DNA of 64,000 nt from Asterochloris sp. CNOR1 (Eukaryota > Chlorophyta > Trebouxiophyceae > Trebouxiales > Trebouxiaceae), in contig OZ017754.1 in NCBI GenBank assembly GCA_963969365.1, positions 2,356,001-2,420,000 of the forward strand, read 5' to 3'. Position 1 is the stretch's first letter; each line of letters starts with the position of its first letter. Below, one piece after another: positions 1 through 64,000 of the stretch. A model generated the notes under the pieces. It was given only the letters and a program-made list of their open reading frames with translations. It made no database searches and was not told where the DNA came from. A program made the position numbers and the translations under genes.

Positions 1-3000
1 TGCTTGTTCAGGTCCCAGAAGTGCACCTGCACACATAGCTACAGAAGTCGCACGCCCATGTACAGCTGCCGGCCCTTACATGACAGAGAAATACGAACAA
101 ATCAAGCTGCAATTTGACTGCCCCTCCCACAGGAGCTGCAGCCCACCTCTGCATCACACAAGAGCAGCAGCCCACCTGCCCATCATCAGCCCCTGCGACG
201 GCCACCTCGTCGTTAGCAGCACAGCACTGCAGCGCGGCGCTGCAAGCAGCCTCTGCGAGGACCGCGCCGGGCCTGCGCAGGTCCAGGAGGCGCAGGTGGG
301 AGTCTGCGCTGCTGGCGAGGACGTACTGCCCGTCAGGGGTGACTGCCAGGCCGCTGATGTAGTCCCGGCAGAGGCTTGCCTGCAGGCGCATATAATGGCT
401 CAACTGGCTCGCACTTGAGAGCAAGAGGTGGACAAGGTGCAAGAGAAGGGCATTTGAGATGGTTGTCTCGGGGTGTGCTTGAGACCAGCAGAGCGCTGCA
501 TGAGCTGGTGCAGATATCGGGCACGAAGTAAAGACTTGTGTGCCATGTCACGCAAACAGCTGTGGTTGGGCCATAGGCATTCACGTGAAGAACGGCGAGC
601 AGGCGAGCTGACGGGTTGGGACTCTACATCAACCCTTCCAGACAGAATCTGCAGCTAAACCCTTTGGCACCACTGCGCTCGCTGTACACCCAAACCACAG
701 CAAGGTGCTGACCACCTGCATGTGGCATGGCAGCCCGACCAGTGAGACGGCCCCAGGTGGAGCGCAGCTCGTCGGGCACGTGAGGGCTGGTCTGGAACGT
801 CAAGGGCTGCCCGGGTCAAATTCTTCTGGTTCAAGGATGACACGTGTAGCAACGCCCACCTTCCAGGCAGCATGGCTGCTGCGTGCGTCCCAGGTCAGGA
901 CGCAGCCCTCCTCTGAGCCAGCCAGCACACAGCTCGCAGCAGGCCCAGAACAGTCTGGGCTGCCAGCAGTCAGCGCCCACAAGCCGGCGTCTGCCTCGGC
1001 CAGGGCGGCTGCAGGGAAGTGGGGCGAGTCCCGCGTCCAGGGCTGACGCCCCTCTGCCAGACTGCAGGGCAGGCAGGCTGGCCAGTGCTGCTTGGTGCAG
1101 GTCGAAGGCACCTGCCGAGCTTGGTCGGAGGCAGACAGTGGATGCAGGCGATGGTGCCGTTGGTTGGGTGTGCACAGTGAGGGGCTGTGCATGATGGGCA
1201 AGAGACGGGTGCTTACACCCTCAGGGCTCACAATGCACCATCAGGCTGCACCAGCACGGTGGGTCCAGTACATGCAGAAGGATTGTGCCATGCAGTTGCC
1301 AGTCATGAGCAGCGTTCTGGGCCGCCGCCTCAGGGCAAGAGCAGCAAGAAACAGTGTCAGATGCCGACATGCGGTGCCCAGACAAGCCTCTCAGGTCTGA
1401 CTGCCAGCACAACAAGCGTTCAACCCTGCGGGCCCCACCAACACAGATCTTTGACCAGGCACCCACCTCCACAGCTTGACGCTGCAATCCCAAGAGGCCG
1501 TCAAAAGCTGATCGGGGGCCCACAGGTGCAGGCACGACACTGCATCGCTGTGCCCTGCAAAAGCCCCCAACTGGCGCCCAGGGCCTGGGGCATAGGCATA
1601 CACGTGACTGTCGTAGGAGCCTGCCAGCAGCACTGCAGGGGTGTGTCCCTGCTCTGCATCTGCGGCCACGATGGCTGTCAGAGAGGTCAGGGGGACCTCA
1701 CCCAGCTGCAGGGAGCGCACCTGCAGTCGCAGCACAAGAGAGCAGCTGGGCTCACACTTGATGTGGTGCAGATGCTCGAAGCAGACCAAGCGCCTGGTTG
1801 ATCATGATTGGGCAGGAGCGCAGTACACAACAGCAGTAGGTCTCATGGTTCCTGACAATGCGATGCAGATGCTTGAAGCAGACCCATGGCCTGGTCATAT
1901 ATGTTGGGGCAGGAGCGCGCAGCTGCCTGGTGCAGCCAAGCTGACATGCAAGACAGCCCTGCCGAGCAAGATGTGCTGGCACCATCCCCGTCAAGACCCC
2001 TGCCAGGTGCGGACTGCTGCTGCTGGTGATGAGTGCACAGCTCCCAGCCAGTGCATGCAGGGAGCTCATCCCCCGGCCTGGCAGCAACATCTGGCGACGC
2101 CAGCCAAGGCAGCCTATCGTTGGCAGACTGCCAGTGTGCAATTAACAAGCCACAGCGGCTGCAGACACTTACACACCAGGAACATCGACAGAGGATCACC
2201 TTCAGCCCAAAAGCAACCTGGTGGACTTGGAAAAGGTGGAAGTCGAACACAAGATGGCCAGCTCACCCTGGCCTGGCTGCAGAGGTCAAACATCCTCAGG
2301 GAGGCGCCATGTCCCACACAGAAGGCCGTGGGGACGCCGCCCATGCTGGCGGCCAGCACTGCGCTGACCGGCCCCTGCTGGCCGCTCACGCTGCGGGCCG
2401 CCGCAGGGACGCGGCTGCGCAGGTCGGGACCCCAGGGGGCACCCTCGAAGCCACTGCAGCCGAGCCCTGTGACGCCAGAGCTGTCCCCAGCAGCAGGAGC
2501 AGGAGCAGGAGGGACCCGTCCACATGGAGCAGCGCTGCGCGGCAGCTCTGCCTGGGGTTCTGATTGCCCAGTCTGGCCACTGGCCTCTGCAGGCACCTGC
2601 AGCCGGGCTGCGGAGGTGTGGCGGCTGGGCGGCTGCCGCTGCGTCCCTGCTGCTGCATCTGGGGGCCCTGCATGCGACATCTGCCTGCTCGGGGCACCCT
2701 GTGCCTGCCTCGACAGCTGCCCCTGACTGCCATCTGCGGGAGGCTGGGCACCAGAGGCAACACCAGCAGCGCCAGACTGGTGCCGGCTCAGGCTGGGCCC
2801 CTGCTGCGCTGCAGCAGAGGAGGGCACCCGCAACCCAGCAGCAGGAGGCTCACAGGACTGCCCCTCCTTGGCGGCCGGCACACCTGCCTGCTCTGCGTCG
2901 TGCCCTGACGCTGACCCCGCCTTGTTCAGGGGGCCGCTCAGAGCCTGCTCCGGCACAGGGCGCGCAAACAGGTTCCTCAGGCTGGCTAGGGAAGCACGGC

Positions 3001-64000: not shown

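Follow-up and report, generated by a model that had tools for sequence, protein, structure and literature searches.

Internal duplications of genes have been described as common, as cited in PMC4974935, and two of the ingredients of the pattern described here, tandem exon duplication and intron gain by tandem duplication, are established (PMC9013439, PMC4974935). In human, fly and worm, tandem duplication has placed homologues of exons in neighbouring introns; that survey was directed at exon copies, some of which are expressed, and exonic bases with a copy in the same gene amount to 0.08% in fly, 0.06% in worm and 2% in human (PMC9013439). In the potato RdRp gene, a duplication crosses the intron-exon boundary, the duplicated unit takes its splice signals from the parent junction and a new intron arises (PMC4974935). 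The core-Reinhardtinia algae have conspicuously long introns, with medians of 198-343 bp; the mechanism driving this length was called likely ancient and was left open, and tandem duplication is not named as a driver in the portion consulted (PMC8226300). Minisatellites and short tandem repeats, finally, are likewise built of head-to-tail copies. How introns lengthen outside transposon-rich genomes is, to our knowledge, an open question.

The stretch of Asterochloris DNA analysed here, a window of 64 kb on contig 9 of a 56.38-Mb genome (21 contigs), resembles each of these systems in part. Degenerate direct copies of exon edges together with their splice sites occupy the adjacent introns well above chance, and roughly every seventh intron, and every second one among the longest, bears worn copies of its own exon edge. 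As in tandem exon duplication, exon homologues lie in neighbouring introns, but the copied unit is the exon edge with its splice site, and it is decayed. In our own ungapped scan, 1.05% of exonic bases had a target of at least 80% identity in the same gene, 0.41% had a non-exonic one and the control gave 0.09%; the published percentages come from another program, and the comparison with them is rough. As in the potato gene, the duplications cross junctions; in our reading, however, the outcome is a longer pre-existing intron with decaying extra sites, whereas there a new intron arises. The median intron length is similar to that of the core-Reinhardtinia. A near constant period is seen in some loci, as in minisatellites, but 42 of 59 significant edges (stricter gene model) have a single copy at a score of at least 110 and 15 have two or more, and the copies are mostly highly diverged and anchored to a junction. 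Among the matches listed in a search of the open literature, no report of decayed exon-edge copies lying densely in introns was found, and the amount of old junction-crossing tandem duplications is apparently unusual. The pattern itself is real and moderately dense, in the window as well as across the genome sample.

All counts rest on the window and a blind sample, bases 1,000,001-1,010,000 of contigs 1-18 (18 × 10 kb, picked by position only), together 244 kb or ~0.4% of the genome. Genes were modelled ab initio: ORF picking by coding potential in the window alone was overfitted, and a gene HMM self-trained on the same 244 kb was therefore used instead. The HMM converged on the donor CAG/GTGAG and the acceptor CTGCAG/G, with 436 introns of median length 218.5 bp in the 244 kb (439 including introns near locus ends). 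Stricter models were obtained by raising the cost of calling an intron, which removes false exons; under the four settings, the median intron length was 219, 249, 261 and 287.5 bp. For A. glomerata, 9 introns per gene and ~26% intergenic DNA have been reported (PMC6652019). A Pfam scan of seven predicted window proteins gave matches for six (Beach + PH_FAN, mitochondrial carrier, RRM, Sec1, kinase/EF-hand and PRA1) and none for the seventh.

Each exon edge, comprising up to 80 exonic and 30 intronic bases, was aligned to the remainder of its own intron and compared with 1000 edges of other loci on the same intron, a permuted-edge control in which intron length, composition and splice consensus are preserved. 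Significance at p ≤ 0.005 was reached by 32 of 371 donor edges and 25 of 372 acceptor edges, with 1.9 expected in each case, and 51 of 400 introns had at least one significant edge copy (3.7 edge hits expected). The excess was upheld with dinucleotide-shuffled introns, a check that the original prediction itself had named (donor edges 29/371, acceptor edges 22/372, introns 48/400). It also persisted under the four gene-model settings, with copies in 54 of 400 (no extra cost, 600 permutations), 55 of 364, 55 of 349 and 58 of 328 introns. The prediction that introns hold degenerate copies of the adjacent exon end with its splice site is thus borne out by both controls. Its assertion of a high density across most genes went too far: under the stricter model, 15 of 77 window introns are significant at p ≤ 0.005, in five of nine window gene models. 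The window (14/90 introns) did not differ from the blind sample (37/310; p 0.37) and is therefore not exceptional. The features of the window are as follows (positions within the window).

1-10560, minus strand: BEACH/PH (FAN-like) gene model, several introns with exon-edge copies (gene HMM; Pfam Beach + PH_FAN, first 740 residues scanned)
4264-4941, 6336-6624, 8417-9150 and 9945-10483, minus strand: BEACH introns with significant edge copies (stricter gene model)
4643-4730, minus strand: decayed copy of acceptor edge 4184-4293, 446 bp distant (p 0.001)
5667-5748, minus strand: pseudo-exon, in which the acceptor and first part of exon 5430-5609 recur as a decayed copy at offset 120 (pair 5579-5628/5699-5748)
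6366-6441, minus strand: decayed copy of acceptor edge 6256-6365, spacing 79 (repeat pair and edge alignment)
6933-7178, minus strand: tandem array of period 77, ~3.2 copies, beginning at the donor of exon 7179-7424 (repeat scan, 6933-7175)
8470-8550, minus strand: decayed copy of acceptor edge 8337-8446, spacing 107 (repeat pair and edge alignment)
10370-10491, minus strand: 23-bp array (period 26 also listed) at the 5' end of the BEACH gene model (repeat scan)
20058-20214, plus strand: 39-bp array, ~3.9 copies, near the acceptor of the first intron (19924-20231) of the mitochondrial carrier gene (repeat scan; gene model; Pfam)
26527-26780, minus strand: two decayed copies (26706-26780, 26527-26604) of donor edge 27035-27144, PABPN1-like (RRM) gene (p 0.0017)
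30389-30839, plus strand: two decayed copies (30389-30502, 30728-30839) of donor edge 30208-30317 (edge alignment)
44525-44985, plus strand: acceptor edge 45017-45126 present as five decayed copies within intron 44372-45046, the best array of the window, spacings 65, 101, 114, 119 and 93 (edge alignment)
47544-47636, plus strand: decayed copy of acceptor edge 47639-47748, spacing 101 (repeat pair and edge alignment)
48749-49036, plus strand: two decayed copies (48749-48834, 48976-49036) of donor edge 48635-48744 (edge alignment)
49926-50008, plus strand: decayed copy of acceptor edge 50068-50177, spacing 161 (edge alignment)
50425-50662, plus strand: three decayed copies of donor edge 50280-50389 in intron 50360-50939, spacings 109, 91 and 88 (edge alignment)
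52796-52903, plus strand: decayed copy of donor edge 52616-52725, spacing 177 (edge alignment)
57576-58107, minus strand: two decayed copies (57576-57637, 58031-58107) of acceptor edge 57190-57299, VPS45 gene (edge alignment)
59859-60020, minus strand: decayed copies (59961-60020, 59859-59948) of a VPS45 exon end (repeat pair and edge alignment)

Among the genes named in the original prediction, significant copies are present in the BEACH gene, the PABPN1-like gene, the plus-strand gene for a disordered protein and VPS45, and additionally in a small plus-strand gene; the carrier and the kinase show weaker pairs only, and no ATPase was recognized among the 17 window proteins and ORFs scanned, which cover part of the window. 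Regular spacing is found in some loci, and of the spacings that had been noted those of 23, 76/77, 107 and 120/121 bp are present; near 50 bp there is no array, just two pairs of offset 54, both exon-exon. Several copies were taken for coding sequence by the gene finder. Residues 54-107 of the predicted VPS45 are unaligned in both solved VPS45 sequences that were compared (as are residues 226-271), and the predicted BEACH domain has a stretch absent from the solved neurobeachin chain: 5667-5729 was called an exon, and neurobeachin lacks the insert (a gap between aligned stretches, query 149 to 177). Since the VPS45 insert 54-107 and the BEACH insert both include degenerate copies of adjacent exon edges, the gene finder was apparently misled by them, a hazard that such copies pose to gene finders. 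The pair 60095-60132/59898-59935 carries the VPS45 exon end and the GTGCAG donor indicated by VPS45 homologues, and the donor probably lies near 60108.

The copies show the orientation and distance of local tandem duplications. With exon-only edges of up to 60 bases, z > 5 was reached by none of 803 inverted edges versus 17 + 14 direct ones, and at p ≤ 0.01 inverted matches numbered 8/402 for donor and 5/401 for acceptor edges, against 4.0 expected. Independently of gene models, 333 direct repeats with a score of at least 90 were found at offsets of 12-600 bp, with 29 expected from long offsets; at a score of at least 80, the excess falls from ~20-fold at offsets below 20 bp to 1.3-fold at 500-600 bp. 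The strong matches are thus direct and their excess is confined to short distance. In some arrays, 6933-7175 for instance, homology extends over full abutting units; many pairs align over less than their offset. Pair offsets modulo 3 show no preference (16, 21, 22). An array outside the window, at 302-953 of the blind-sample locus L018, consists of three copies with spacings of 144, 146 and 140. If copies decay around a slowly changing exon, they are expected to be nearer to the exon than to each other. Among eight of the 15 multi-copy sets, this star-like relation was seen in four (44372, 48715, 26321 and L018 302); the relations were about equal in 30288 and 59724, mixed in 57270 and reversed in 50360, and they constitute weak evidence because the local alignments vary in length.

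The way in which the two members of a pair differ indicates one working and one decayed copy per duplication, as originally proposed. In 47 pairs with p ≤ 0.001, mismatch by codon position was.239/.254/.311, compared with.320/.326/.286 in 446 non-significant alignments. Transitions and transversions at codon positions 1-2 numbered 198:229 (427 changes) versus 1038:2223 (3261 changes) in the controls. Gaps on the exon side ignore the reading frame, 72 of 82 not being a multiple of 3. Because third codon positions differ most and gaps are blind to frame, the pairs are true homologues, in which coding selection has acted on the exon copy but not on its intronic twin. The third-position excess also favours gradual decay and speaks against instant error-prone copying as the source of the high divergence, which was rejected in this form; a part of the divergence may nevertheless have arisen early. 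The inner splice sites decay neutrally. Their dinucleotide could be read in 50 of the 57 significant edges and is retained in 26 of these (GT in 14/29 donors, AG in 12/21 acceptors), near the ~55% that overall identity would predict, and introns show no excess of splice-like sites (donor-like sites 269 sense versus 312 antisense, p 0.08). Dinucleotide retention and site counts accordingly give no sign of selection on the inner sites, and the idea that the process constantly supplies new splice sites is supported by neither.

These observations bear on several other readings of the copies. Chance matching in GCAG-rich low-complexity sequence has in its favour that the strong acceptor consensus CTGCAG inflates raw matches, but a 12- to 17-fold excess at p ≤ 0.005 remains against the edges of other genes and against shuffled introns, and the codon-position signal is absent from the non-significant alignments; with the permuted-edge, shuffle and codon-position results all opposed, this reading is ruled out for practical purposes. 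The copies could instead have a function, as decoy splice sites or as alternative (mutually exclusive) exons, given that about half of them keep their GT or AG and some are 80-85% identical to the exon. Tandem duplicated, mutually exclusive exons would be expected to keep frame and splice sites, whereas here the gaps ignore frame, site retention is near that of neutral decay and introns contain no surplus of splice-like sites, which renders a functional role very improbable. The original prediction had named tandem duplication across an exon-intron boundary as a known route to new introns. Creation of new introns by duplication of an AGGT-bearing exon stretch, the model described in PMC4974935, is likewise very improbable as a general account. 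It requires the donor flank of an intron to be homologous to its acceptor flank; such pairs numbered 4 of 343 at p ≤ 0.001 (0.3 expected), but just 7 at 0.01 (3.4 expected) and 20 at 0.05 (17.2 expected), and the copies sit within existing introns, so that at most a few cases may have arisen in this way. Introner-like elements were rejected too, as near-identical introns across loci are absent from the sample (357 introns from 19 loci gave no inter-locus pair at E ≤ 1e-4).

Whether exon edges are special targets was addressed with matched blocks of 80 nt, each compared with the adjoining 160 nt (p ≤ 0.005). Hits were obtained for 25/221 donor edges, 20/231 acceptor edges, 14/204 intron interiors, 6/128 exon interiors and 2/171 intergenic blocks, the last class including the stretch of missed genes at 10.6-19.8 kb (0/38 blocks); exon-only blocks gave 14/198 on the donor and 9/210 on the acceptor side, and the first and last 80 nt of introns 12/93 and 5/93. 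The original prediction had invoked a lineage-specific mutational process, read here as one favouring exon-intron junctions. In line with it, donor edges and the first 80 nt of introns are the highest block classes, and the 164 merged repeat pairs comprise 45 junction + intron pairs where uniform placement predicts 22.5 and 34 intron-only pairs where it predicts 42.4 (exon-exon 36 versus 21.4, intergenic 11 versus 28.9). Edges taken together (45/452), however, do not differ clearly from intron interiors (Fisher p 0.24), although they do from intergenic blocks (p 5e-5), and exon-only edges are not above intron interiors. The junction share was moreover reproduced by a simulation in which duplications fall blindly, the outer copy is coding-constrained and the inner one decays freely, with rates that are assumptions: the simulated ratio of junction to intron-only pairs was 863:555 (747:449 with more indels), compared with 41:32 observed at offsets up to 300 (p 0.40 and 0.21), and the observed ratio of 66:32 after adding exon-intron and junction-junction pairs also shows no significant difference. 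The easier detection of pairs with one conserved member therefore suffices; under these assumed rates, the two-fold junction excess is ascribed to the conserved partner, and the excess of exon-exon pairs is ascribed to repetitive coding sequence. A process aimed at exon edges is thus improbable. The simulation does not account for the intergenic deficit (11/43 of intergenic + intron-only pairs, p 0.013 and 0.021), and the difference between intergenic blocks and intron interiors (p 0.008) is a point against a fully position-blind neutral process; the shortage of local direct repeats in intergenic DNA could reflect either faster turnover there or an association with transcribed DNA.

A further alternative concerns timing, namely a past wave of local tandem duplication that has since slowed and left copies of similar age (about 20-30% divergence). 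Among 130 merged pairs at offsets of 30-300 bp, six are at least 85% identical and 45 lie at 70-75%; intron pairs of at least 85% make up 3/32 where a steady rate would yield 29-39% in the simulation, and junction pairs 3/41 where it would yield 32-35%. The 3.2-kb tandem duplication of the window, at 76% identity, would fit such a wave. On the other side, the oldest pairs are near the detection limit, and the chance component of the raw matches may form a larger share of the merged pairs. The simulation also stops at a divergence of 0.35 per copy, when 129/181 junction pairs are still detectable and the intron pairs are nearly exhausted (27/142); it therefore overstates the young share of junction pairs, since pairs older than those simulated stay detectable. 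We consider a slowed wave a serious possibility, though not the favoured one. The paucity of young pairs in any case implies that most of the signal is old, which argues against a supply of sites that is constant at present and against an active process as initially envisaged. Perfect full-unit duplications of 9-59 bp number ten in the 244 kb, in addition to one long perfect run. A young tandem duplication is found outside predicted genes at L016:4447-4790, with an offset of 226 and 92% identity over 118 bp.

Edge copies go with long introns. Under the stricter model, the median length is 520 bp for introns with a copy and 236.5 bp for the others, and copies occur in 29/58 introns of at least 500 bp, 15/58 of 350-500 bp, 6/74 of 250-350 bp, 5/98 of 150-250 bp and 0/61 below 150 bp. 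Length alone does not create the matches, because each p-value was set on the same intron. Long introns are nevertheless larger targets, and introns with a copy are longer even after subtraction of one unit (348 versus 236.5 bp), so that cause and effect are not separated: of the predicted enlargement of introns, the association holds, while the direction of the link is not proven.

The explanation we favour, with a probability of about 0.7, is that tandem duplications within gene bodies occurred at unspecial positions, that the outer splice site stayed in use and the inner copy decayed, and that introns lengthened as a result. Gene bodies would have gained many short (about 15-300 bp) head-to-tail duplications, the positions of which need not be special. 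A unit lying across one exon-intron junction would be nearly harmless as long as the outer splice site continues to be used; the inner copy of the exon edge and splice site would then fall within the intron. The outer copy would remain under coding selection, whereas the inner one would be free to decay and to lose frame and sites. Repeated events may produce regular arrays, and each event would lengthen the intron. Old local tandem duplications that cross junctions and are made harmless by splicing are thereby a plausible route to the length of such introns. The scarcity of pairs of at least 85% identity speaks against a steady process, and the star-like pattern expected under this explanation is clear in just four of eight arrays. 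More speculatively, and in our estimate rather unlikely, the long introns of Asterochloris, and perhaps those of green algae in general, would owe most of their length to a past wave in which tandem duplications crossed junctions inside transcribed genes, with few in intergenic DNA and with splicing as the filter that allowed duplicated exon edges to persist; if true, the unexplained long introns of green algae would be the fossil record of that wave. As the conserved exon stays near the ancestral state, exon-edge copies could serve as datable fossils that, in a comparison with relatives, order the growth of single introns in time.

Several other repeats were observed. The segments 11322-14470 and 16398-19508 form the 3.2-kb tandem duplication and carry minus-strand ORFs with weak leucine-rich-repeat similarity that stays under the Pfam cut-offs; the whole stretch of 10.6-19.8 kb is without gene-finder models. 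The segment 14649-14793 is a copy, 76.7% identical, of 19761-19908, where the mitochondrial carrier gene begins (first exon 19795-19923), which suggests that part of the carrier gene was included in a tandem unit of about 5 kb. On the minus strand, 31341-43507 is a gene model for a disordered-looking, A/Q/P-rich protein of 2926 aa, of which the piece 40310-41599, without Pfam domain, has relatives in ENA contigs at 99% (one) and 70-72% (two). L013:366-678 and L016:6226-6540 have 315 bp in common at 96% identity in inverted orientation, the sole inter-locus match at E ≤ 1e-6 among 19 loci, and are perhaps copies of a young dispersed element.
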